DNA of 33,519 nucleotides from a bacterium (GTDB lineage Bacteria > Krumholzibacteriota > Krumholzibacteriia > JACNKJ01), in contig VGXI01000010.1 in assembly GCA_016873475.1 (NCBI GenBank), forward strand, positions 1 to 33,519, given 5' to 3'. A program made the position numbers and the translations under genes. Positions within the stretch are counted from its first letter, which is position 1. Each line of letters opens with the position of its first letter. Positions 15,652 to 32,595 of this stretch are shown here, piece after piece. Under the pieces are notes generated by a model, which did not search any database, was not told where the DNA came from, and saw nothing but the letters and a program-made list of their open reading frames with translations.

Positions 15652-17292
15652 TTACTTCAGCAGCGCCCCGCGGGCGACCTCGCTGAGGCCCCCGGCGCTG
15701 GCGCGCAGGAAGTAGACCCCGCTGGGCACGGCCTGGCCGGCGGCGTCGCGGCCGTCCCAGCTCACGCTGAGCCACCCGGGCCCCGCGGCCGTCTCCGCGA
15801 AGCTGCGCAGCAGGCGACCCTGCAGGTCGAAGACCTCGAGCTGGACCGGGCCGGCCGCCGGAGCGTGGAAGCGCGCCGTGGTCTTCGGATTGAAGGGGTT
15901 CGGATGCAGGGCGAGGCCGAGCTGGCCGAGCGCCGGCGACTCGGCGGGCACCGACGTCAGGTCATCCCAGGTCAGGTCCAGGATCAGCTTGTAGCGCTGC
16001 ACGTCGTTGCCGCTGTGCCGCGTGATCTTGATGAAGTAGCTGCCCGCCGGCAGCGAGTAGTCGATCAGGGTCTCCTGGACGCCGATCGCCGAGGCGTTCT
16101 GCGCGAGCAGGACGGTGCTGCCGGTGGCGCCGGAGCGGATCTCGAAGCCGAGGTCCATGATCTGGTTCGTGTAGATCCCGCCCCCGATCGAGTCGAGGAT
16201 GTAGTAGGAGCCCACGGCCTGCAGGTAGATGTCGAAGAGGCTGCCGACGGGCGTGCTGAAGGAGTACCAGTCGGTGTCGTTCATCTCGGTCAGGCTGTGG
16301 TTCTCGATCGTGACCTGGCCCGTGAAGCTGCCCAGGGCGTTGGCCGTGTTGTAGGCGTTGTCGCGCTCGGCGAAGTCGCCGTAGTTGCGCATGCCGCCGC
16401 GGATGTCGTCGTCGCGAACGCCGTAGAAGGCAGCCGTGTAGGCAGCCTCCATCAGCTTGGTCTGGTTGATCGGACCCTCGTGCCCGAGACCGTGGCCGTG
16501 GCCGTGCTCGTGCATCACCACATTGCGGATGAAGCGGTAGTCCAAGTTCGCGTTGGCCCAGCCCTCAGCGTAGTCGAGCACCATGTCACTGCCGCCGCCG
16601 CCGGGTGTGGGGAAGTAGTTGTAGGCGAGGATGCCGTTCACGCCGTCGATGGGGTGCATGCCGATGCGCACGTCGCCGCGAGCGCCGAGGAGGCCGTTGG
16701 CGCCGAAGGCGGCGCCGTCGTCGCTGACCTCGACGTAGGTGATGCCGATGAACTCGCCCCAGCGCGCGAAGCAGGCGGCGAAGATCGGCTTCCAGACCGC
16801 CTCGCTGCCGAAGAGGGCGTTCAGCCTGGCGTAGAGCGAGCTGTTGCTGCCCGGTTCGCCGGCGCCGGGAGGAATGTAGACGCCGTCCGGCAGGAAGCTG
16901 TAGGTGACGGTGATCGGGTCGCCGACCACGCCAGTCGAGCCGTCCGTCGCCGTGACGAAGATGCGCGTCTGCCGGACGTAGCGGCCGCCGTCCTCCTGGG
17001 GAGGGAGCTGCGGCAGGCGGGCCAGCAGTTCGCGGAACTTCTCGGGCGAGGTGTCCGGGTGGATGCAGACGGCCAGCTCGGCGTTCTCGATACAGCTCGT
17101 GTCGAGGCGCAGGCCGGTGAGCTCCTGCAGGTTCTCGAGCACGAGCTGGTCAACGTAACTGCCGATCAGCTCGTGGCTCGCCAGGACGGGCGCGGACTCC
17201 GCCGCCAGGGCGCTGGCCGCGGGCGCGGCGGCCATGAGCAGGAACAGCCCGAAGACCGCCGGGCGTACGCGGGAGCCGAAAGTGCGGGGCAT
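15652..17292 (-). CDS. Secreted metzincin-type zinc metalloprotease with PPC and FlgD/sorting-type domains (paralog 1)
   Basis: A predicted exported protease of 546 residues. A Sec signal (to about residue 30, ending ASALA) precedes an N-terminal domain with two Cys pairs (LDTSCIENAELAVCIH). The catalytic domain follows, with the zinc motif HEHGHGHGLGH (about residues 258-268), a match to HExxHxxGxxH, and a probable Met-turn in TKLMEAAY. A pre-peptidase C-terminal-like beta domain comes next (NDTDWYSFSTPVGS ... SYFIKITRHSGNDVQRYKL). Last is an Ig-like sorting domain (LHPNPFNPKTTARF, VFDLQGRLLR, GVYFLRASAGG). AGGAGG lies seven bases before the ATG. It is the only gene here with a TAA stop. The downstream neighbour in transcription is a strong terminator, and a close paralog lies just upstream, so this is a tandem duplication. 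The substrate is unknown. Confidence 0.85.
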   Translation of the reverse strand: MPRTFGSRVRPAVFGLFLLMAAAPAASALAAESAPVLASHELIGSYVDQLVLENLQELTGLRLDTSCIENAELAVCIHPDTSPEKFRELLARLPQLPPQEDGGRYVRQTRIFVTATDGSTGVVGDPITVTYSFLPDGVYIPPGAGEPGSNSSLYARLNALFGSEAVWKPIFAACFARWGEFIGITYVEVSDDGAAFGANGLLGARGDVRIGMHPIDGVNGILAYNYFPTPGGGGSDMVLDYAEGWANANLDYRFIRNVVMHEHGHGHGLGHEGPINQTKLMEAAYTAAFYGVRDDDIRGGMRNYGDFAERDNAYNTANALGSFTGQVTIENHSLTEMNDTDWYSFSTPVGSLFDIYLQAVGSYYILDSIGGGIYTNQIMDLGFEIRSGATGSTVLLAQNASAIGVQETLIDYSLPAGSYFIKITRHSGNDVQRYKLILDLTWDDLTSVPAESPALGQLGLALHPNPFNPKTTARFHAPAAGPVQLEVFDLQGRLLRSFAETAAGPGWLSVSWDGRDAAGQAVPSGVYFLRASAGGLSEVARGALLK

Positions 17293-17453: not shown

Positions 17454-19052
17454 CTACTTGAGAAGCAGAGCGCGTACGGTCTCGCTCTCGCCGCCGCTCG
17501 TGGCGCGGAGGAAGTAGAGGCCGCTGGGCGCCGGACTGCCGGTCTCGTCCTGGCCGTTCCAGCTCACTTGCACCCAGGCGTTGCCGGCCGCCTCCTGCCG
17601 GAAGCCCTGGATGCGGCGGCCCTGAACGTTGAAGATCTCCAGGCTGACGCTGCCCGCCTCGCGCACGTAGAAACGCGCCGTGGTCTTCGGATTGAAGGGC
17701 GTCGGGAAGACGCTCAGGCCAAGGCCCCGCGCCGGCACCGCCGCCTCACCCACCGCCGTGCTGATCTGGGTGAGATCGATGTTCAGGCGGTAGCGCTGGA
17801 CGTCGTTGCCGCTGTAGCGGCGCACGCGCAGGTAGTAGTCGCCGGCCGTCAGCTCGAAGTCGGTGATGGTCTCGACGACGCCGAGGCCGCCGGCGTTGGC
17901 GGTGGTGAGCACCGTCACACCGTCGCTGGCGCGCAGCTCGAAGCCGAGGTCCATGATCTGGTTGGTCCAGACCTGGACGCCGTCGACGACGTAGAAGGAG
18001 CCCACCGGCGTCATGACCACGTCCAGCAGCATGCCGCTGGCGATGGTGAACTTGAAGTAGTCACTGTCGCTGGAGGCGGTCACCGAAACGTTCTCCTGCT
18101 GCAACGGCCCCTCGGGCAGCGTGCCCCAGAGCGTCGCATCGGCGGCGGTGCTGTTCTTCTCCAGATAAAAGCCGTAGTTGCGCATGCCGCCGCGGATGTC
18201 GTCGTCCTGCGGGCCGTAGATGACGGGATCGTAGTAGGGCTCCATCAGCTGGCGGTTGCTGGCCTCGATGTGGCCGAGACCGTGGCCGTGGCCGTGCTCG
18301 TGCATCACCACGTTGCGGAAGAAGCGGTAGTCGGTGCCGGCGTCACCCCAGTTCTCGCTCCAGTCCAGGACCATGTCGCCGCCCGAGGCCGGGTAGTAGT
18401 TGTAGGCCAGCACGTTGCTCGGGCCGTCGATGTTGGCCATGCCGATGCGGATGTCGCCGCGCACGCCGAGGACGCCCCAGGTGTCCGGGAAGGCGGCGCC
18501 ATCGTCGACCTCCTCGACGTAGTGCAGGCCGACGAAGAAGGCCCAGCGGGCGAAGCAGTCGCGGAAGATCTGCTTCCAGGCCTCGGTGTTGCCGCCGAAC
18601 TGAGCGTTCAGGCGCGCGAAGAGCGAGCTGTTCTCGTCCTCGGACGGGATGTAGGTGCCGTCGGGCAGGAAGCTGTAGGTGAGGATCACCGGGTCGCCGA
18701 GGATGCCCGAGAAGCCGCTGGCCGTCAGGCTCCAGCGGTCCACGCGGTTGTAGCGGTCACCCTCGGGCTCGATCCAGGTGGGCAGCTTGCGCAGCAGCTC
18801 CTCGACGACCTCGGGCGGGGTGTCCGGCGCGAGGCAGAAGGAGCGCTCGGCCGTCTGCACGCAGGTGGCCGCTGGGTCGATGCCGTAGAAGCGCTGCAGG
18901 TCGCTGGCGACGATCTGCGCCGCCATCCTCTCGACCATCTGGATCGCGCTCTGATTGAGGTAGGGGGTCTCGCCGGCGGCGGAAGCCGGCAGCGCCGAGG
19001 CCAGCAGCGTCAGCAGGGCGCCGGCCAGCGCGAGGCGGGAGCGTGCGAGCAT
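17454..19052 (-). CDS. Secreted metzincin-type zinc metalloprotease with PPC and FlgD/sorting-type domains (paralog 2)
   Basis: This 532-residue protein has the same architecture as the gene at 15652. It shows a Sec signal (LALAGALLTLLASALPASAA), an N-terminal domain with TCVQTAERSFCL, a catalytic domain with the identical HEHGHGHGLGH (about residues 250-260) and a Met-turn NRQLMEPYYD. A PPC-like domain (SDSDYFKFTIASG ... GDYYLRVRRYSGNDVQRYRL) and a C-terminal sorting-type domain (VFPTPFNPKTTARF, FNVQGRRIQ, GLYFLRATSGG) complete it. The two proteins share long blocks such as DDDIRGGMRNYG and NQIMDLGFE. The ATG at 19052 has GGAGG nine bases upstream and starts the signal peptide; an extension to 19196 lies in promoter DNA. 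The two genes are separated by a hairpin and each has its own promoter, so they are not one simple operon. Confidence 0.85.
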   Translation of the reverse strand: MLARSRLALAGALLTLLASALPASAAGETPYLNQSAIQMVERMAAQIVASDLQRFYGIDPAATCVQTAERSFCLAPDTPPEVVEELLRKLPTWIEPEGDRYNRVDRWSLTASGFSGILGDPVILTYSFLPDGTYIPSEDENSSLFARLNAQFGGNTEAWKQIFRDCFARWAFFVGLHYVEEVDDGAAFPDTWGVLGVRGDIRIGMANIDGPSNVLAYNYYPASGGDMVLDWSENWGDAGTDYRFFRNVVMHEHGHGHGLGHIEASNRQLMEPYYDPVIYGPQDDDIRGGMRNYGFYLEKNSTAADATLWGTLPEGPLQQENVSVTASSDSDYFKFTIASGMLLDVVMTPVGSFYVVDGVQVWTNQIMDLGFELRASDGVTVLTTANAGGLGVVETITDFELTAGDYYLRVRRYSGNDVQRYRLNIDLTQISTAVGEAAVPARGLGLSVFPTPFNPKTTARFYVREAGSVSLEIFNVQGRRIQGFRQEAAGNAWVQVSWNGQDETGSPAPSGLYFLRATSGGESETVRALLLK

Positions 19053-21082: not shown

Positions 21083-21955
21083 ATGGAAAGCTACCGCGGG
21101 AGCCTGGCTCGACCAGGCGCGGCGCTCCTCTGGCTGGCCTTGACCGCCGCGCCGGCCGCTGCGCAGGGCGGCAGCGGCTGGGGCATTCGCGAGGAGAACG
21201 TCTCGGCGCTCGTGCTCTTCATCGTCTTTTCGATCGTCATCGTGGTCAGCATCCGCCTGGCGCGCATGGGCCGGCCGCTCTTCGTGCGGCGCATCGCCGG
21301 CCTCAACGCGGTGGAGGAGGCGATCGGCCGCTCCACCGAGCTGGGCCGCAAGGTGCTCTACGTGCCCGGCATCATGTCCATCGACGAGGTGCAGACCCTC
21401 GCCTCGCTGGCCGTGCTCAAGCACGTCGCCAAGCACACGGCCGAGTACGGCACGCCGCTGGACGTGCCGAACAAGGACCCGCTCACCTTCGCCGCCGCGC
21501 GCGAGACGGTGAAGGAGGCCTACCTCGAGGCGGGGCGGCCGGACCTCTTCAGCGACGACATCGTGCACTACATCACCTACGACCAGTTCGCCTACACGGC
21601 GGCGGTGTCGGGCATCATGGTGCGTGAGAAGCCGGCGGCGAACTTCCTGGTCGGCTCCTTCTACGCCGAGAGCCTGCTGCTGGCCGAGGCCGGCCAGGGC
21701 ACGGGCGCCATCCAGATCGCCGGCACGGCCGAGGTGGCGCAGATCCCCTTCTTCGTCGTCACCTGCGACTACACGCTGATCGGCGAGGAGCTCTACGCGG
21801 CGAGCGCCTATCTCTCGCGCGAGCCCGTCATGCTGGGCAGCGTCAAGGGCCAGGACTTCGTGAAGCTGATGCTGCTGGCCTGGATCGTCATCGGGCTCCT
21901 GATCGCGACCTTCTTCGGCAACCTGGCGCTCCAGGGCTGGCTGCAGCCGCAGTAG
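21083..21955 (+). CDS. Membrane-anchored protein of unknown function, cassette gene 1
   Basis: The 290-residue product has an N-terminal hydrophobic signal-like segment (ALLWLALTAAPAAAQ), a second helix (ALVLFIVFSIVIVVSIRLA), and a soluble alpha/beta region of about 185 residues. A C-terminal helix follows (LMLLAWIVIGLLIATFF). The soluble part opens RIAGLNAVEEAIGRSTELGRKVLYVPGI and contains NFLVGSFYAESLLLAEAGQ, AGTAEVAQIPFFVVTCDYT and MLGSVKGQDF. From memory this resembles an uncharacterised domain family (DUF6754-like); I am not certain. GAGGGAG precedes the ATG. It is followed 9 bp later by gene 2. Together with genes 2-4 it forms a compact unit made only of membrane proteins. Confidence 0.75.
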   Translation: MESYRGSLARPGAALLWLALTAAPAAAQGGSGWGIREENVSALVLFIVFSIVIVVSIRLARMGRPLFVRRIAGLNAVEEAIGRSTELGRKVLYVPGIMSIDEVQTLASLAVLKHVAKHTAEYGTPLDVPNKDPLTFAAARETVKEAYLEAGRPDLFSDDIVHYITYDQFAYTAAVSGIMVREKPAANFLVGSFYAESLLLAEAGQGTGAIQIAGTAEVAQIPFFVVTCDYTLIGEELYAASAYLSREPVMLGSVKGQDFVKLMLLAWIVIGLLIATFFGNLALQGWLQPQ

Positions 21956-21964
21956 AGAGGACCC

Positions 21965-22651
21965 ATGTTCAGGAAACGCATTCCCCTGCTGCTGACTTTC
22001 ATCGCCGGCATGCTGCCGATCCTCTCCTTCCTCTTTCGCGGGCCCGCCCTGCGGGACGAGGATCCGACGGGCAACGGCATCCTTCACGTCAGCGACACCT
22101 TCGAGCGCTGGATGGTGATCCTCGCCGCCGCGGCGCTGCTGCTCGGCGTCGTCAACGTCTTCCAGGTGAACCTGCGCAAGATCTCCAACCGCGCGCAGGG
22201 CTGGCCCTACGCGCTGGTGTTCCTGCTCGCGCTGACGATCACCGGGTTCTTCGGGCTCTGGGACGCCTTCTCCCGCGCGAGCAACACCGCCTGGTACGCG
22301 CACGCCGCCTACAACTGGATCGTCGAGGCCGGCTTCAAGCCACTCCAGGCGACGATGTTCAGCCTGCTCGCCTTCTACGTGGCCTCGGCCGCCTTCCGCG
22401 CGTTCCGCGTGCGCAACGTGGAGGCGGCCATCCTGCTTGCGGCAGCGCTCCTGATCATGCTCGGCGTGAACCCTTACGTCGTCCGCGCGCTGCCCTTCCT
22501 GCCCGACCTCACGCAGTGGACGCTGAACATTCCCAATGCCGCGGCGCAGCGGGGGATCATCATCGGCGCCGCCCTGGGCGCCGCCTCGATGGCCCTGCGT
22601 ATCCTGATCGGCATCGAGCGCAGCTACCTCGGCCTGCAGAAGGGAGAGTAG
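21965..22651 (+). CDS. Polytopic membrane protein of unknown function, cassette gene 2
   Basis: The 228-residue product has about six hydrophobic segments (IPLLLTFIAGMLPILSFLF; WMVILAAAALLLGVVNVFQV; YALVFLLALTITGFFGLW; ATMFSLLAFYVASAAF; EAAILLAAALLIMLGV; GIIIGAALGAASMALRILI). It has polar loops with NLRKISNRAQGW and AAYNWIVEAGFKPLQ. The C-terminus is GIERSYLGLQKGE. I recognise no family or catalytic motif. AGAGGA precedes the ATG; the stop is one base before the GTG of gene 3. Its role is probably shared with the anchored proteins on either side. Confidence 0.75.
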   Translation: MFRKRIPLLLTFIAGMLPILSFLFRGPALRDEDPTGNGILHVSDTFERWMVILAAAALLLGVVNVFQVNLRKISNRAQGWPYALVFLLALTITGFFGLWDAFSRASNTAWYAHAAYNWIVEAGFKPLQATMFSLLAFYVASAAFRAFRVRNVEAAILLAAALLIMLGVNPYVVRALPFLPDLTQWTLNIPNAAAQRGIIIGAALGAASMALRILIGIERSYLGLQKGE

Positions 22652-22652
22652 T

Positions 22653-23558
22653 GTGACCGCCCTCTTCCAGCGGCTGATGAACATCGACCGGCGCTGGCTC
22701 TACCTGCTCGTGGGCCTGGCGGCGGTGATCCCCATCCTGCTGCCGCTCAACCTGCCCGTGAACGTCGCCCAGTCCGTGCAGGACCTCTACGACCGCGTGG
22801 AGAGCCTGCCGGCGGGCTCGGTGGTCCTCGCCTCCTTCGACTACGGCCCCTCCACCGGCCCTGAGAACGACCCGATGGCCGACGCCTTCCTGCGTCATTG
22901 CCTGGCGCGGGACCTCAAGGTGCTCTGTATCGCGCTCTACCCGCTGGGCGGTGTCACCGAGGGCGCCGAGGAGCTCCAGCGCGCGGTGGGGCCGCTGGAC
23001 CCGGCCAACGGCGTCCTCGAGAGCACGGCCTTCCCCGGCAAGTTCTACGGCAGGGACTTCGTCTACCTCGGCTACAAGGACGGCGGCCAGGCGACGATGC
23101 GGCAGATGGGCGAGAACGTGCACGCCGTCTTCCCGCGCGAGTACTACCAGGCGCCGGTGACGGACTACGAGCTGTCCAACCAGGTGCGGGGCTACGGCGA
23201 CGTCAGCTTCGTGATGAGCTTCGCCACCGGCATCATCGGCGAGTGGTGGGCGAACCTGGTGAACGCCCAGTACGGGACGCCGGTCGCCGTGGGTTGCACG
23301 GCGGTGAGCGCGCCCAAGTACTTCGCCTACTACAAGGCGGGGCAGATGTTCGCGCTCTTGCCCGGGCTCAAGGGCGCGGCCGAGTACGAGTACCTGGTCA
23401 AGCAGAAGTACGGGCAGATCGCCGAGGCGACGGCCGCCGACGTCTACAACGCCGGCAAGGGCTGGGACGTGCAGTCCATCGTCTACACGATCATCACGCT
23501 CTTCATCGTCATCGGCAACGTCGGCTTCCTGCTGGAACGCCGGCAGCGCCGGTCCTAG
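22653..23558 (+). CDS. Membrane-anchored protein of unknown function, cassette gene 3
   Basis: The 301-residue product has an N-terminal helix (WLYLLVGLAAVIPILLPLNL), an alpha/beta soluble domain and a C-terminal helix (SIVYTIITLFIVIGNVGFLL). The soluble part contains GSVVLASFDYGPSTGPENDP, KVLCIALYPLGG, VYLGYKDGGQATM, SFATGIIGEWWANLVNAQYG and GCTAVSAPKYFAYYKAGQM. The segment from GIIGEWWANLV to LLPGLKGAAEYE parallels GSFYAESLLLA to MLGSVKGQDF in gene 1, so the two may be distant homologs; this is by eye only. The start is GTG with AAGGGAG upstream. I recognise no characterised family. Confidence 0.75.
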   Translation: MTALFQRLMNIDRRWLYLLVGLAAVIPILLPLNLPVNVAQSVQDLYDRVESLPAGSVVLASFDYGPSTGPENDPMADAFLRHCLARDLKVLCIALYPLGGVTEGAEELQRAVGPLDPANGVLESTAFPGKFYGRDFVYLGYKDGGQATMRQMGENVHAVFPREYYQAPVTDYELSNQVRGYGDVSFVMSFATGIIGEWWANLVNAQYGTPVAVGCTAVSAPKYFAYYKAGQMFALLPGLKGAAEYEYLVKQKYGQIAEATAADVYNAGKGWDVQSIVYTIITLFIVIGNVGFLLERRQRRS

Positions 23559-23567
23559 GGGAAGGCC

Positions 23568-24275
23568 ATGGCCAGCGAACTCTGGGTCTGGGTCGGCGCG
23601 CTCTTCACGCTGTGCATCCTGAGCTTCCTGTACAAGGACAACCCCTTCTTTCGTTTCGCCGAGAGCGCCTTCGGCGGCATCAGCATGGGCTACTACATCA
23701 ACCTGACCTTCCGGAACACCTTCGTGCCCAATCTGATCGCGCCGCTCTTCCACGCCGGGCCGGCCTACAGCGCGGCCACCTACCCGACCCGCGAGCCCGA
23801 GCACTGGCTGCTCATCGCGCCCTTCCTGCTCGCGCTCGTGCTCTACTCGCGCTACGTGCCGAAGATCGCCTGGATGAGCCGCTTCGCGCTGGCCGTCTAC
23901 GTGGGCTACTACGCGGGGCTGAACATGATGCAGAAGCTGCAGGGCGAGGTGCTGCCGCAGTCGGCGGACACCATCCGCAGCTTCTGGCGCTTCCTCCCCG
24001 AGCGGCTGCCGATCTGGTTGGACGCCCAGACGCGCACCGTGAGCTGGGGCGAGTGGATCTCGAGCCTGGTCTTCGTGATCGGCGTGCTCGCGGTGCTCGT
24101 CTACTTCTTCTTCTCGGCGGAGCACAAGGGCGTGGTCGGCGGCGTGGGGCGCCTGGGGATCTGGTTCCTGATGATCTCCTTCGGCGCCGCCTTCGGCTAC
24201 ACGATCATGGGCCGCGTGTCGATCCTGATCGGCCGCGTGATCTTCCTCGTCGACGACTGGCTAGGCCTCGGCTAG
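23568..24275 (+). CDS. Polytopic membrane protein of unknown function, cassette gene 4
   Basis: The 235-residue product has about six hydrophobic stretches (LWVWVGALFTLCILSFLY; HWLLIAPFLLALVLYS; LAVYVGYYAGLNMM; LVFVIGVLAVLVYFFF; IWFLMISFGAAFGYTIM; ILIGRVIFLV). Aromatic, polar segments lie between them (FFRFAESAFGGISMGYYI; EVLPQSADTIRSFW). Function is unknown. The junction with gene 3 reads TAGGGGAAGGCCATGG, so the upstream stop runs straight into the Shine-Dalgarno. Its TAG stop is interlocked through CTAG with the stop of the minus-strand gene at 24272. It plays the same positional role after gene 3 as gene 2 does after gene 1. Confidence 0.75.
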   Translation: MASELWVWVGALFTLCILSFLYKDNPFFRFAESAFGGISMGYYINLTFRNTFVPNLIAPLFHAGPAYSAATYPTREPEHWLLIAPFLLALVLYSRYVPKIAWMSRFALAVYVGYYAGLNMMQKLQGEVLPQSADTIRSFWRFLPERLPIWLDAQTRTVSWGEWISSLVFVIGVLAVLVYFFFSAEHKGVVGGVGRLGIWFLMISFGAAFGYTIMGRVSILIGRVIFLVDDWLGLG

Positions 24276-26257: not shown

Positions 26258-29200
26258 ATGGCCGAGCACGACGCGGGGGCAAGGCCCGAGCGCGCGGATG
26301 CGGGCGAGCCGGCGAACCCCGGCGGCAGCACGCGCCGGTCCTTCCTCTACCAGCTCGCCCTGACCGGCATCGGCGCCGCAGGCATCGCCCGGCAGGCGGC
26401 GGGCGCGGTCGGCTATCTCGACGTGCTGGCCATCGACAATCCCCTGGCGAGCTACCCCAATCGCGGCTGGGAGCGGGTCTATCGCGACCTCTACCGCAGC
26501 GACAGCAGCTTCGTCTTCCTCTGCGCGCCCAACGACACGCACAACTGCCTACTGCGAGCCTTCGTCAAGAACGGCGTCGTCACGCGCATTGCGCCGAGCT
26601 ACGGCTACCACGAGGCCAAGGATCTGGACGGCGGCGGCGCCAGCCGGCGCTGGGATCCGCGCTGCTGCCAGAAGGGCCTCGCTCTCGCCCGCCGCTTCTA
26701 CGGCGACCGCCGCTGCAAGCGGCCCCTGGCCCGCAAGGGCTTCAAGGCCTGGGCGGACGCCGGCTTCCCGCGCGACAAGCGCACGGGCGCCGTCGACGCG
26801 AAGTTCCTCCAGCGCGGCAAGGAGCCTTGGGTACCCGTCAGCTGGGACGAGGCCTTCGCCCTCGCCGCCCGCGCCGCGATCGACATCGCCCGCACCTACT
26901 CGGGCGAGGCGGGCCAGGCCAAGCTGCGCGCGCAGGGCTACGACCCGCTGATGGTCGAGGCGACCCAGGGCGCCGGCACGCAGGTCCTGAAGTTCCGCGG
27001 CGGCATGCCGGCCCTGGGCCTCACCCGGATCTTCGCGCAGTACCGGATGGCCAACGCGATGGCCCTCGTCGACGACAGGCTCCGCGACACGGGGCCGGAG
27101 AAGGCCCTCGGGGCCCGCGGCTGGGACAACTACTCCTGGCACACGGATCTGCCACCCGGCCACCCGATGGTCACGGGACAGCAGACCGTGGACTTCGATC
27201 TCTGCAACGTCGAGCACGCGCGACTCATCCTCGTCTGGGGCATGAACTGGATCACCACGAAGATGCCCGACGCGCACTGGCTCACCGAGGCGCGCCTGAA
27301 GGGCAGCAAGGTGGTCGTGATCGCCGCCGAGTACAGCGCGACTTCGTCCAAGGGCGACGAGGTGCTCATCGTGCGGCCGGGCACGACTCCGGCGCTCGCG
27401 CTCGGTCTCGCCCAGCAGATCATCGCCGAGGGGCTCTACGACGAGGCGGAGGTGGCCGGGGGGACGGACCTGCCGCTGCTCGTGCGCACGGACACGGGCC
27501 AGCTCCTGCGCGCCGCGGAGGTCTTCGCGGGCTACCGGCCGGCGCCGCTCGCGAACGCTACCCTGGTCACCGCCGCCGGCGAGAGCGGGCCGGCCATCCA
27601 CGCCCAGGCGGGCGCGGTGATCGGGGCCGCCCAGCGGGAGGCCTGGGGCGACACCGTCGTTTGGGATCGCCGCCGCGGCGGGCCCGCCGCGGTGAATCGC
27701 GACCAGGTGGGCCGGCACTTCGCGGCGCTCGGCCTCGCGCCGCAGCTCGCCGGCACGGTGACGGTGACCCTCGCCAGCGGCGAGCGCGTGGCCTGCCGCA
27801 GCGTCTTCGACGCCACCCGCGCGTTGCTCGACGCCAGCTACACGCCCGAGCAGGTGGCCAAGCTCACCTGGGTGCCGGCCGCGGCGATCCGCAGCCTCGC
27901 CCGCCAGATCGCGGCCAACCCCGAGCGCACGCTCTTCGTCAACGGCATGGGGCCGAACCAGTTCTTCAACAACGACCTCAAGGACCGGGCGATCTTCCTG
28001 GTCGCCGCGCTGACCCGCAACGTCGGCCGCATCGGCGGCAACGTGGGCAGCTACGCGGGCAACTACCGGGCGAGCTTCTTCAACGGGCTGGGCCAGTACG
28101 TCGCCGAGAATCCCTTCGCGCCGGGGCTCGACCCGGCCAAGCCGGCGCCCGTGAGGAGCTACTGGAAGCCGGAGTCCGTGCACTACTTCAACCACAACGA
28201 CCAGATCCTGCGGGCGGGCGAGACGGTGCTGACGGGCAAGAGCCACATCCCGACGCCGACCAAGTCCATCCACGTCTCCAACTCCAACTCGCTGATCGGC
28301 AACGCGAAGGGCCACTACGACAGCATCGTCAACAGCTTCCCGCGCGTGGAGTTCATTGCCGTGAACGAGTGGTGGTGGACGGCGAGCTGCGAGTACGCGG
28401 ACATCGTCTTTCCCGTAGACAGCTGGGCCGAGCTGCGCGCGCCCGACATGACGATCAGCGCCACCAACCCCTTCCTGTACGTCTTCCCGACCTCGCCGCT
28501 GCCACGCATCCACGATACCCGCGGGGACGCCGAGGTGGCGGCCGGCATCTGCGCCGCCATCGGCCGCGAGTTGGACGACCCGCGCTTCGCGGACTACTGG
28601 CGATTCGTGGGCGAGGGCGACATGCGGCCCTACATCCAGCGCATCCTCGACCACTCGAACGCCATGCGGGGCTTCCGCGTCGAGACGCTCGAGCGCGAGG
28701 CGATGCGCGGCGTGCCGGCCATCATCCAGACGCGCACCTACCCCAAAGTCGGCGCCTGGGAGCAGGCGAACGAGGACCGGCCCTGGTACACGAAGACGGG
28801 CCGGCTCGAGTTCTACCGCGAAGAGCCGGAGTTCATGGACAGCGGCGAGAACCTGATCGTGCACCGCGAGCCGATCGACTCCACCTTCTACGAGCCGAAC
28901 ACGATCGTCGCGGCCCCGCATCCCCTGCTCCGGCCGAAGCGGCCGGAGGACTACGGCGTCGATCCGGCCGATCTCGGCAGCGACGCGCGCCAGCACCGGC
29001 ACGTCGTGCTCGACGTCGATGCCCTGCTCGCCACGCGCCATCCGCTCCACGCGGAGGGCTATCGCTACGTCTTCCACACGCCCAAGTACCGGCACGGCGC
29101 CCACACGACGTCGGTGGACACGGACATCGTCGCCATCTGGTTCGGACCCTTCGGCGACATGTACCGCGAGGACAAGCGGATGCCCTACATCAACGAGATG

Positions 29201-29785
29201 TTCCTGGACATCAACCCGTTGGACGCGCGCGAGCTGGGCGTCGAGGACGGCGACTACGTCTGGATCGACGCCGATCCGCACGATCGGCCCTTCCGCGGCT
29301 GGCAGCAGAACGCGGAGCGGTACCAGGTGGCTCGCCTGATGGCCCGCGCCCGCTACTACCCCGGCACGCCGCGCGGCATCACGCGCATGTGGCACAACAT
29401 GTACGGGGCCACCTACGGCTCCGTGAGGGGCAGCCGCGAGAACGCGAACGGCATGGCCCGCGCCCCGGAGACGGGCTACCAGTCGCTCTTCCGTTCGGGC
29501 AGCCACCAGAGCTGCACGCGCGGGTACCTGAAGCCCACCTGGATGACCGACAGCCTCGTCGTCAAGGGCGTCTTCGGCCAGAAGATCACGCAGGGCTTCG
29601 TCGCCGACGTGCACTGCCCGACCGGCGCGCCGCGCGAGTCGATCGTGCGCATCGAGCGCGCGGAGGCGGGCGGACCCGGCGGCCAAGGGCTCTGGCGACC
29701 CGCGCGGCTCGGCCTGCGGCCGGGCTACGAGAGCGCGGCGCTGATGCGCTTCATCGCCGGCGGCTTCGCCGCCCGCACGAGCTAG
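26258..29785 (+). CDS. Nitrite oxidoreductase / nitrate reductase-type molybdopterin catalytic subunit, Tat-exported
   Basis: This is a type II DMSO-reductase family catalytic subunit of 1175 residues. The Tat signal TRRSFL (Arg26-Arg27) indicates export, so the active site faces the periplasm. The FS0 iron-sulfur site reads CAPNDTHNC (C89, D93, C97) with PRCCQKG (C136/C137), in place of NarG's HxxxCxxxC. The molybdenum ligand is Asp297 in [11 protein letters not shown], equivalent to NarG Asp222. Further blocks are [25 protein letters not shown] and [18 protein letters not shown]. These strings resemble, from memory, NxrA of Nitrospira and anammox bacteria more than E. coli NarG. AAGGGAG precedes the ATG. 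First gene of a four-gene operon with its own beta, gamma and chaperone genes. The direction (nitrate reduction or nitrite oxidation) and even the oxyanion are not decidable from sequence; chlorate or selenate reductases belong to the same group. Confidence 0.88.
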
Positions 29786-29794
29786 GGGGAGGCC

Positions 29795-30922
29795 ATGCCC
29801 AAGCGCAAGAACTGGCAGATCGGCCGTGAGCAGGACTACCCCTACGAGGCCGCGCCGCCCAAGCGGCAGGTGGCCTACATCTTCGATACGAACAAGTGCA
29901 TCGAGTGCCAGACCTGCACCATCGCCTGCAAGGCGACCTGGACCAGCGGCAAGGGCCAGGAGACCACCTTCTGGAACAACGTCGAGACCAAGCCCTACGG
30001 CGGCTATCCGACGGCCTGGGACCTGCGCCTGCTCGAGATGAGCGAACCCGCGCGCTGGGCGCGCGGCGTGCTCGAGACGCCGACCGTTTTCGAAGGCCTG
30101 CCGCCCAACCAGCCGCCGCGCGGCCACCGGCCGGAGGTCGCCGACTACGGCGCGCCCAACCTGGGCGAGGACGACGTCACCGCGAACGTCGAGATGGGCA
30201 TGGCTTTCGAGGGCATCCACCCGATGTGGATGTTCTACCTCGCCCGCATCTGCAACCACTGCGACCACCCGGCCTGTCTGGCGGCCTGCCCGCGCAAGGC
30301 CGTCTACAAGCGCGAGGAGGACGGGATCGTCCTCGTCGACCAGGAGCGCTGTCGCGGCTACCAGGAGTGCATTCGGGCCTGTCCGTACAAGAAGGTCTTC
30401 CACAACGTGATCAGCCGCGTGAGCGAGAAGTGCATCGGCTGCTACCCGCGCGTGGAGCAAGGCGAGGTGGCGCTCTGCGTGGAGGCCTGCATCGGGAAGA
30501 TCCGCCTGCACGGCTTCCTCTCCACGCGCGAGGCGCCGCGCCCGGACAACCCGCTCGACTACATCATCAAGATCCGCCGGCTCGCGCTGCCGCTCTACCC
30601 GCAGCACGGCACGGGGCCGAACGTCTTCTACATTCCGCCCGTGCACGTGCCGGACGCCTTCCTCGAGCAGCTCTTCGGCCCGGAGGTGGCCGCGGCGAAG
30701 GCGCTCTACCGCGAGGCGGCGCGGGACAGGCAGCTACTCGGCGCGCTGCTGCTCTTCGGGGCGACGAACAAGATCATCACCCGCTTCGCCGTGCAGGGCG
30801 AGGAGGCCGTGGGCTGGGACGACGCCGGCACGGAGCTGGCGCGCGTGCCCTTCACCGAGCCCCACCGCGTGCGGAACTTCTTCGATGAGCGCCACGGCGC
30901 CTATCGCCACAACACGACCTAG
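29795..30922 (+). CDS. Iron-sulfur electron-transfer beta subunit (NxrB/NarH type)
   Basis: This subunit passes electrons between the molybdenum subunit and the heme gamma subunit. The 375-residue product carries four cluster motifs: CIECQTCTIAC (C35, C38, C41, C45), CNHCDHPACLAACP, CRGYQECIRACP and CIGCYPR with CVEAC. In the third, Tyr replaces one Cys, as the Trp does in NarH, which suggests a [3Fe-4S] cluster. The N-terminus (NWQIGREQDYPYE) and NVETKPYGGYP are NxrB-like. It has no signal peptide, so it would be carried out folded with the alpha subunit. The gene starts 9 bp after the alpha gene, at TAGGGGGAGGCCATG. Confidence 0.92.
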   Translation: MPKRKNWQIGREQDYPYEAAPPKRQVAYIFDTNKCIECQTCTIACKATWTSGKGQETTFWNNVETKPYGGYPTAWDLRLLEMSEPARWARGVLETPTVFEGLPPNQPPRGHRPEVADYGAPNLGEDDVTANVEMGMAFEGIHPMWMFYLARICNHCDHPACLAACPRKAVYKREEDGIVLVDQERCRGYQECIRACPYKKVFHNVISRVSEKCIGCYPRVEQGEVALCVEACIGKIRLHGFLSTREAPRPDNPLDYIIKIRRLALPLYPQHGTGPNVFYIPPVHVPDAFLEQLFGPEVAAAKALYREAARDRQLLGALLLFGATNKIITRFAVQGEEAVGWDDAGTELARVPFTEPHRVRNFFDERHGAYRHNTT

Positions 30923-30934
30923 GGAGGGCAGGCG

Positions 30935-31882
30935 ATGCGGAGCGACGACGCGGGCCTCTGGGCCATTCTCGGCGCCTTCCTGTTCAGCATCCTGCTGATG
31001 GCGGGGCTGCTCACGCTGGCGCAGCGCGAGTACGTCCGCGGGCTGCGCGAGCGCCAGCTCGTCGGCGTGCAGACCCGCCTCGGCGCCGAGGCGCTCCTCG
31101 TCGTGCGCGTCGGCGCCGGCGCCGCGCTCGGCGATCCCGAGGCGAAGCTCTGGCGCGAGGCGCCGGCCACCCAGATCGCCCTGCTGCCGCAGAATGTGGC
31201 CCTGCCGGCGATCACGGAGACGGCGGTGGCGAGCATCGCGCTGCAGGCGGTCACCGACGGCGAGCGCATCGCCTTTCGCCTGAGCTGGCCGGACGCCACG
31301 CGCGACCGCGCGCAGGAGGTCACCCGCTTCGGCGACGCCGCCGCGCTGCAGTTCCCCCTCGCCGAGGACGCCACCTACATGATGGGCGCCGCGGGCAAGC
31401 GCGTGCAGATCCTGCACTGGAAGGCGCTCTGGCAGCGCGACGTCGACGAGGGCTTCCAGGACGTGCAGGACCTGCATCCCAACTACTGGGTCGACCTCTA
31501 CTGGTTCGCCGCGGGCAGCTTCCCGCAGCGCGTGCCCGAGGACTTCGCCGACACCCGCGCCCAGGCCTGGTTCCCGGCGCGCGCGGCGGGCAACCCGATC
31601 GCCCAGTGGAATCGTGTCGAGCCGATCGAGGAACTGATCGCCGAGGGCTTCGGCACGCTCACGGCGCAGCGCGAGAGCGCGAGCGCCGGACGCGCCGTCT
31701 GGCGCGAAGGCCGCTGGTGGCTCACCGTCGTCCGCCCGCTCGAGACGCAGGACCCGAACGACTACCAGTTCCGCCTCGATCGGCCGGGCAGCGTGGGCGT
31801 CGCCATCTGGGACGGCAGCGCCGGCAACGTGGGCGGCCGCAAGCAGTACTCGCCCTGGCTCCGCTTCGAGGTGCAGGGATGA
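30935..31882 (+). CDS. Heme-b gamma subunit, ethylbenzene dehydrogenase type, N-terminally membrane anchored
   Basis: A predicted b-heme subunit that connects the enzyme to the respiratory chain. The 315-residue product begins with one hydrophobic helix (LWAILGAFLFSILLMAGLLTLA) that looks like an anchor rather than a cleaved signal. A beta-sandwich domain follows with IAFRLSWPDAT, FPLAEDATYMMGAAGKRVQILHWKA, DLYWFAAGSFP and WWLTVVRPLE. The Met-Met-Gly and Lys in the MMGAAGKRVQILHWKA block correspond in position to the axial-ligand region of EbdC-type subunits; that assignment is by family recall. It starts 12 bp after the beta gene and overlaps the chaperone by ATGA. No NarI-type integral membrane cytochrome is present. 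Confidence 0.82.
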   Translation: MRSDDAGLWAILGAFLFSILLMAGLLTLAQREYVRGLRERQLVGVQTRLGAEALLVVRVGAGAALGDPEAKLWREAPATQIALLPQNVALPAITETAVASIALQAVTDGERIAFRLSWPDATRDRAQEVTRFGDAAALQFPLAEDATYMMGAAGKRVQILHWKALWQRDVDEGFQDVQDLHPNYWVDLYWFAAGSFPQRVPEDFADTRAQAWFPARAAGNPIAQWNRVEPIEELIAEGFGTLTAQRESASAGRAVWREGRWWLTVVRPLETQDPNDYQFRLDRPGSVGVAIWDGSAGNVGGRKQYSPWLRFEVQG

Positions 31883-32595
31883 AAGAGCAGGCGCGCGCGC
31901 TTGCCCTGGCCGATCTCCTGTTTCTCCTGGCCGAGTTGTTGCGCGCGCCGGCGGCAGGCGCGCGCAGCCTGCCCGCCGCCGATCGCGCCGCGCTGACTGC
32001 GCTGCTCGCCGGGGCGGGCCTGGCGAGCCCGCAGCGCGCGGCGGCCCTGCTCGCCGACTGCCTCGCGCGAGCGGGGCGCGAGCCCGCCGCCCTCGCCGAG
32101 GCGCAGAGCGCGCTCTTCGAGGGCGCCGCGCCCTGCGCCGCGAACGAGACGGCCTTCGTGCGCCGCGACAAGGGCGCGCTGCTCGCCGACATCGCCGGCT
32201 TCTACCGCGCCTTCGGCTTTGCGCCCGCGGCCGGCACGGGCGAGAAGGCCGATCATCTCGGCGCCGAGCTCGAGTTCGTCGCGCTGCTGCTGGTCATGCG
32301 CGCGCAGGCGGCGGCCGCCGGCGAGGCCGAAGCGGCGGCAGTCACGCACGAGGCGCTCTGCGCCTACTGGGCCGACCACCTCGGCGAGTGGCTGCCCGCC
32401 TTCTGCGCGCGCCTGGCCGCGCTGGCCCCGGACCGCCATCACCGCCGCCTCGCGCGCCTGCTCGCGCTGGCCGGCACGCGGGTCGCCGCCGAGCTCGGCC
32501 TCGTCTTCGGCGAGAGCGCGCCGCCCCTGCCGCCGCCGGGCGACGAGGAGGCCGAGGCCTTCCGCTGCGGGCTGCTGCGCCCGACCGGCGCCTAG
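31879..32595 (+). CDS. TorD/NarJ-family molybdoenzyme maturation chaperone
   Basis: A dedicated chaperone that would hold the alpha subunit during cofactor insertion and check Tat export. The 238-residue, helix-rich, Ala-rich product has ALADLLFLLAELLRAP at the N-terminus, an AQSALFEG segment and CAANETAFVRRDKGALLADIAGFYRAFGF (the C..NE......... K..LLADIAGFY block typical of TorD). KADHLGAELEFVALLLVMRA and WADHLGEWLPAFCARLA follow. ATG 31879 overlaps the gamma stop and GAGG lies six bases upstream. It is the last gene of the operon. Its TAG shares CTAG with the stop of the convergent amidohydrolase. Confidence 0.85.
   Translation: MKEQARALALADLLFLLAELLRAPAAGARSLPAADRAALTALLAGAGLASPQRAAALLADCLARAGREPAALAEAQSALFEGAAPCAANETAFVRRDKGALLADIAGFYRAFGFAPAAGTGEKADHLGAELEFVALLLVMRAQAAAAGEAEAAAVTHEALCAYWADHLGEWLPAFCARLAALAPDRHHRRLARLLALAGTRVAAELGLVFGESAPPLPPPGDEEAEAFRCGLLRPTGA

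Follow-up and report, generated by a model that had tools for sequence, protein, structure and literature searches.

Closest described systems

The closest described relative of the four-gene membrane cassette reported here (g1 to g4, positions 21,083 to 24,275 of a 33,519-nucleotide stretch of Krumholzibacteriota contig VGXI01000010.1, hereafter the window) is a protein family without known function, DUF6754 (PF20539). By its sequence g1 is a full-length member of this uncharacterized family (378 bits against a gathering cut-off of 27, E 2.2e-113, profile positions 8-250 of 257). We found no paper naming DUF6754 or PF20539 in the open literature, and no description of g2, g3, g4 or of a system context in the family. 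The second described relative is the GlmL/MutL family (PF13941; NCBIfam NF040745 and TIGR01319), to which a soluble partner of the cassette, here called MutL, clearly belongs (PF13941, 415 bits at locus L032, above the cut-off). This MutL differs from GlmL in being ~150 aa longer and tied to the membrane cassette rather than to glutamate mutase, while short 440-490-aa forms occur independently of the cassette. Against NF040745 (GlmL, the glutamate mutase accessory) it scores 218-236 bits, where the equivalog cut-off is 475, and it falls under every NCBIfam GlmL cut-off.

More distantly, ECF-type and TRAP/TTT importers offer an analogy only, in that they combine variable external recognition, membrane subunits and conserved shared inner parts. 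The cassette differs from them in having neither an ABC ATPase nor a TRAP/TTT membrane family nor any sequence relation, and a comparison with ABC/ECF transporter families gave no ABC ATPase or known permease match in g1-g4 or their partners. A further soluble partner, bsh, weakly recalls the barrel-sandwich proteins NqrA and RnfC, below threshold.

A conserved cassette of four membrane proteins

The cassette consists of g1 (21083..21955, 290 aa), g2 (21965..22651, 228 aa), g3 (22653..23558, 301 aa, GTG start) and g4 (23568..24275, 235 aa), four open reading frames on the + strand with intergenic gaps of 9, 1 and 9 bp, exactly the place and spacing given in a first-pass annotation made from the letters alone. 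A codon-usage gene caller seeded with g1-g4 returned a coherent annotation across the whole window. Hydropathy confirmed the architecture proposed there, of anchored proteins (g1, g3) combined with polytopic ones (g2, g4): a single strong transmembrane helix flanks the soluble stretch on each side in g1 (residues 42-60 and 260-278) and g3 (18-36 and 276-294), and at least five helices were found in g2 and in g4. Neither Pfam nor NCBIfam gave a significant match for g2, g3 or g4, a PDB sequence search with g1 and g3 found no relative, and PADLOC models matched none of g1-g4, MutL and bsh, on which ground an anti-phage defence system was rejected. The earlier description of a conserved, all-membrane unit without a characterized homologue thus stands, its sole Pfam family being the DUF of g1.

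Scanning species genomes with g1 returned 19 loci in metagenome-assembled genomes (MAGs) which, by their submitters' own labels, belong to Krumholzibacteriota, Eisenbacteria, Cloacimonadota, Hydrothermota, WOR-3, Latescibacterota, Bacillota, Armatimonadota, Zixibacteriota and unnamed bacteria. In nearly all loci that were long enough, tblastn placed g2, g3 and g4 directly behind g1, so that g2 too is kept beside g1 in other genomes. The exact order g1-g2-g3-g4 held in 72 of 83 distinct untruncated loci from at least nine labelled phyla, with most exceptions being extra, split or fused g3 genes (a natural g3-g4 fusion occurs in L200 and L201). Homologues of all four genes in a common order across many phyla place the cassette beyond chance, and the gene-neighborhood conservation on which the first-pass annotation had made its case depend is borne out. 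DUF6754 was detected in 16 of the 80 genomes from the window's own phylum and in 57 of 59 Cloacimonadota. For the phylum that includes G095 the count was 13 of 44, and for that of G092, labelled Bacillota, it was 12 of 150, with ten matches (paralogous cassettes) in a single genome of 1.9 Mb. The window's own genome carries a second cassette, on contig C8. In three Cloacimonadota loci (L157, L158, L159) a second, giant DUF6754 protein of 920-950 aa follows g4, giving g1-g2-g3-g4-g1'.

Membrane topology and predicted folds

The positive-inside signal indicates that the soluble domains of g1 and g3 lie on opposite faces of the membrane. Lysine plus arginine averaged 4.0 per 12 residues behind the first anchor of g1 and 1.0 before it (103 homologues), and 3.0 before the first anchor of g3 against 1.2 behind it (143 homologues), which predicts a cytoplasmic domain for g1 and an extracytoplasmic one for g3. 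An N-terminus of g1 on the outside is consistent with the signal-peptide-like segment ahead of its first anchor, with lipobox-like or signal-peptide-like g1 N-termini in the window and in L157, and with fibronectin-III-like extensions (weak matches) in some relatives.

For AlphaFold2, g1-g2 and g3-g4 were modelled as fusions, both pairs being in frame with the single intervening TAG read as a residue, a modelling device only that claims no read-through. Confidence was high in the cores of g1 (residues ~80-240, pLDDT mostly 85-98) and g3 (residues 40-250, mostly 82-98), each predicted to be Rossmann-like, with six strands, helices between them and an identical order of elements. A PDB fold search with both models gave nothing at E <=0.001 (the best hits, at E 0.015 and 0.023, were generic Rossmann or GT-B-like folds), in line with the earlier claim that no known system is recognizable.

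The first-pass annotation had also read the locus as a duplicated two-gene module (A-B-A'-B'), pointing to local motifs that look alike in g1 and g3. Comparing profiles built from 46-107 homologues each, hhalign gave probabilities of 0.9% for g1 with g3 and 1.7% for g2 with g4 and detected no homology signal in any pair of the four, so that the motif likeness is undetectable at profile level. Together with the opposite topology of the g1 and g3 domains, this led us to reject the duplication at sequence level. Given the shared order of strands and helices in the modelled cores, a very ancient common ancestry, or a common fold, of the two domains is nonetheless conceivable.

Soluble partners of the cassette

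The four-gene unit is real and conserved, but it was incomplete as first described: the cassette forms the membrane half of an undescribed multi-component system that is widespread and includes soluble proteins missed at that stage. The usual partners, present beside the cassette in many loci, are MutL, a GlmL/MutL-family ASKHA protein of about 600-640 aa; bsh, a ~375-aa protein with a weak barrel-sandwich-like match; and sm, a small protein of ~80-146 aa, to which a ~150-aa membrane protein, mem, is added beside the cassette in some loci. Complete sets occur in varying orders in L172, L174, L175, L176, L200, L201, L203, L032 and L034, and contiguous ones come from unrelated genomes of several phyla. 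The arrangement is contiguous as sm-g1-g2-g3-g4-mutL-bsh in L172, as sm-mutL-bsh-g1-... in L174-L176 and as g1-g2-[g3::g4]-sm-mutL-bsh in L200 and L201, where g3 is fused to g4 and adjacent genes overlap or abut; L032 reads mutL-bsh-...-sm-g1..g4, and L040 encodes sm and MutL as one fusion protein. The window's own genome encodes MutL and bsh on a separate contig (L074; MutL at C89:970-2400, PF13941, 415.7 bits).

Cassette and MutL co-occur strongly in all three groups tested. In the window's own phylum MutL was found in 6 of 80 genomes, all six among the 16 with DUF6754 (hypergeometric probability about 3e-5); in the phylum of G095 it was present in 13/13 DUF6754-positive vs. 2/31 DUF6754-negative genomes (about 2e-9); and in a Bacillota-type sample the long form was present in 10/12 positive vs. 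0/20 negative genomes (about 1e-6), with these probabilities ignoring genome relatedness and thus overstating significance. Short GlmL forms of 440-490 aa occurred in DUF6754-positive and -negative genomes of the latter sample alike. The idea that one MutL is generally shared among many cassettes was discarded, with cassette and MutL ratios ranging from 1:1 to 4:1 and even 1:4.

Two loci without a cassette nearby encode single MutL+bsh fusion proteins of 843-965 aa (L090:5233-8130 and L091:5878-8409), one of which adjoins genes resembling, by eye, methylmalonyl-CoA mutase subunits. At L203:3584-5887, a 767-aa protein that looks by eye like a BcrA/BadF-like ASKHA protein (MEKNYFLGIDIGSTTLKAVLL) lies just upstream of a complete cassette with its own MutL.

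Paralogues, conserved residues and neighboring genes

Where a genome has several cassettes, conservation between paralogues is usually highest in g1, and g3 is usually the most divergent subunit or among the least conserved. Three loci of a single lineage (L175, L198, L199) contain four tandem g3 copies, 50-56% mutually identical, alongside a single g1, g2 and g4. Conserved residues of g3 concentrate just behind the strands of the sheet (6 of 212 shifts as high), which is the usual ligand edge of such a sheet; those of g1 show no concentration at this edge (146 of 173 shifts as high).

Among 104 neighbors of Bacillota-type cassettes we counted Peptidase_C26 (5), Amidohydro_3 (5), M20 (4) and TldD (3), against two Amidohydro_3 and fewer than two each of Peptidase_C26, M20 and TldD in a control set of 104 genes from the same genomes, a suggestive enrichment in enzymes of peptide, amide and amino-acid catabolism that is to be read with a hand-trimmed neighbor list, related genomes, one entry four genes away and hidden control singletons. 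Amidase, carbon-nitrogen hydrolase, asparaginase, creatininase and M14 peptidase genes also neighbor these cassettes, and an indolepyruvate oxidoreductase adjoins cassettes in two unrelated groups (L168; L175/L199). In the window's own genome, the second cassette (G000:C8, L031:3464-10741) stands tail to tail with a 4-hydroxyphenylpyruvate dioxygenase (TIGR01263) cluster, which also contains a fumarylacetoacetase-like and an HmgA-like gene (weaker homogentisate-pathway matches) and a flavin-reductase-like gene.

Two further associations were set aside. An adjacent hisC-like gene may simply belong to biosynthesis, since it exceeds the HisC equivalog cut-off and no other complete copy was found. 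A link to poly-gamma-glutamate was prompted by a paper on Cloacimonadota (PMC13082233): PgsB was above cut-off in 15 of 16 DUF6754-positive genomes of the window's own phylum but also in 4 of the 16 negative ones sampled there, and in none of the 12 and 9 DUF6754-positive genomes of two other phyla, and this failure outside the own phylum makes the correlation look phylogenetic. At two loci (L172:7076-12993, L173:4511-7269) the cassette adjoins tsaE-tsaB-tsaD tRNA-modification genes in a conserved neighborhood (TsaE by search, the others by eye).

A possible importer and its alternatives

It is tempting to speculate that the cassette is an importer assisted by an ASKHA protein, in which g3 serves as the receptor outside and g1 as a coupler in the cytosol, a reading that we regard as credible but hold tentatively. 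The proteins would then assemble into one complex, in which g2 and g4 would make up the path through the membrane and g3 would use its extracytoplasmic domain to bind a small solute (probably amino-acid-, amide- or peptide-derived, and varying between paralogues). Through its highly conserved cytosolic domain, g1 would couple the membrane part to the MutL-bsh module, and ATP-dependent cycling of that module would drive or gate uptake. This reading is drawn from the expansion of paralogues, the divergence and four-fold copies of g3, the domains on opposite sides of the membrane, the conserved residues at the ligand edge of g3 and the catabolic neighbors. An importer with g3 as receptor is our best guess as an account of these clues. 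Several points weigh against it, beginning with the limits of the neighbor comparison given above. No transporter signature was recognized in the cassette, neighbors in Cloacimonadota and in the window are not clearly catabolic, the membrane parts of both AlphaFold2 models are of low confidence, and ATP hydrolysis by the long MutL form is assumed. Moreover, MutL may not be obligatory for the system: in genome G160 four long MutLs accompany a single cassette, and in the own phylum MutL went undetected in several genomes that have DUF6754.

Among other explanations, a membrane-bound enzyme complex, in which MutL and bsh would activate or drive ATP-dependent chemistry of the amide, lactam or cobalamin-mutase kind and g1-g4 would be anchor and catalytic subunits, seems to us unlikely. 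GlmL-type proteins are known, from their family names, as accessories of B12-dependent mutases, MutL also weakly matches Hydantoinase_A, the L090 and L091 fusions exist as single genes without a cassette, and g1 conservation is unusually high for a mere coupling domain; yet no cofactor or catalytic motif was recognized, no enzyme fold matched significantly, the long MutL lies far under the GlmL equivalog cut-off (218 vs. 475 bits), and several outer-face copies of g3 are hard to account for on these terms. A sensory or signalling receptor complex, with g3 sensing an external ligand and g1 relaying it to MutL-bsh, would fit the expansion of paralogues, the opposite-side domains, the combination of variable outer with conserved inner parts, and some response regulators and histidine kinases among the neighbors. 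Two large polytopic subunits would be atypical of such a receptor, however, no output domain was found, and the hydrolase neighbors favor nutrient use over regulation, so that we judge a sensor improbable.

We view as similarly improbable a machine for envelope assembly or export that handles, for instance, a lipid, a glycan or a surface protein. The cassette's near-universal presence in Cloacimonadota (57/59), the lipoprotein-like and fibronectin-like extracellular extensions of g1 and a glycosyltransferase gene downstream in the window, L003 and L005 would fit, but the distribution in other phyla is patchy (16/80, 12/150), neighbors differ greatly between loci, no component known from secretion or polymer systems was identified, and the PgsB correlation is lost outside the own phylum. 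Very improbable, finally, is an energy-converting complex of the Rnf/Nqr kind with bsh as its RnfC/NqrA-like subunit: the match of bsh to the NqrA N-terminal barrel-sandwich (NQRA_N) reaches 15.9 bits, under the Pfam cut-off of 25, the bsh profile matches no Nqr or Rnf structure, the system contains no other Rnf/Nqr subunit, and no iron-sulfur or flavin motif was recognized by eye.

Other genes in the window

Downstream of the cassette, an operon at 26258-32595 (+) encodes a molybdopterin-oxidoreductase-like protein of 1175 aa together with an Fe-S subunit, another subunit and a probable chaperone, and resembles by eye an enzyme of the nitrate or dimethyl sulfoxide (DMSO) reductase family. Upstream, two adjacent secreted proteins are encoded on the - strand (15652-17292 and 17454-19052), of which the second shows, by eye, the metalloprotease-like motif HEHGHGHGLGH and a C-terminal, FlgD-like end of the sorting type.

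Significance

The finding holds and reaches beyond the four genes first described, with a mechanism that is only proposed. One gene order across many phyla, presence in 57 of 59 Cloacimonadota and up to ten copies in a small genome argue for an important role, yet its membrane proteins all lack both an assigned function and a structural relative of significance. MutL-long, bsh and sm now provide a concrete partner set that makes the question of function testable. A new class of transport machine, with two opposite-facing Rossmann-like domains, two polytopic subunits, exchangeable external receptors and a GlmL/MutL-family ASKHA ATPase that drives or gates it across many uncultured phyla, is a rather doubtful prospect. 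If true, a transporter coupled to an ASKHA protein would represent a new way of powering membrane transport, and the importer would explain how some uncultured fermenters feed.

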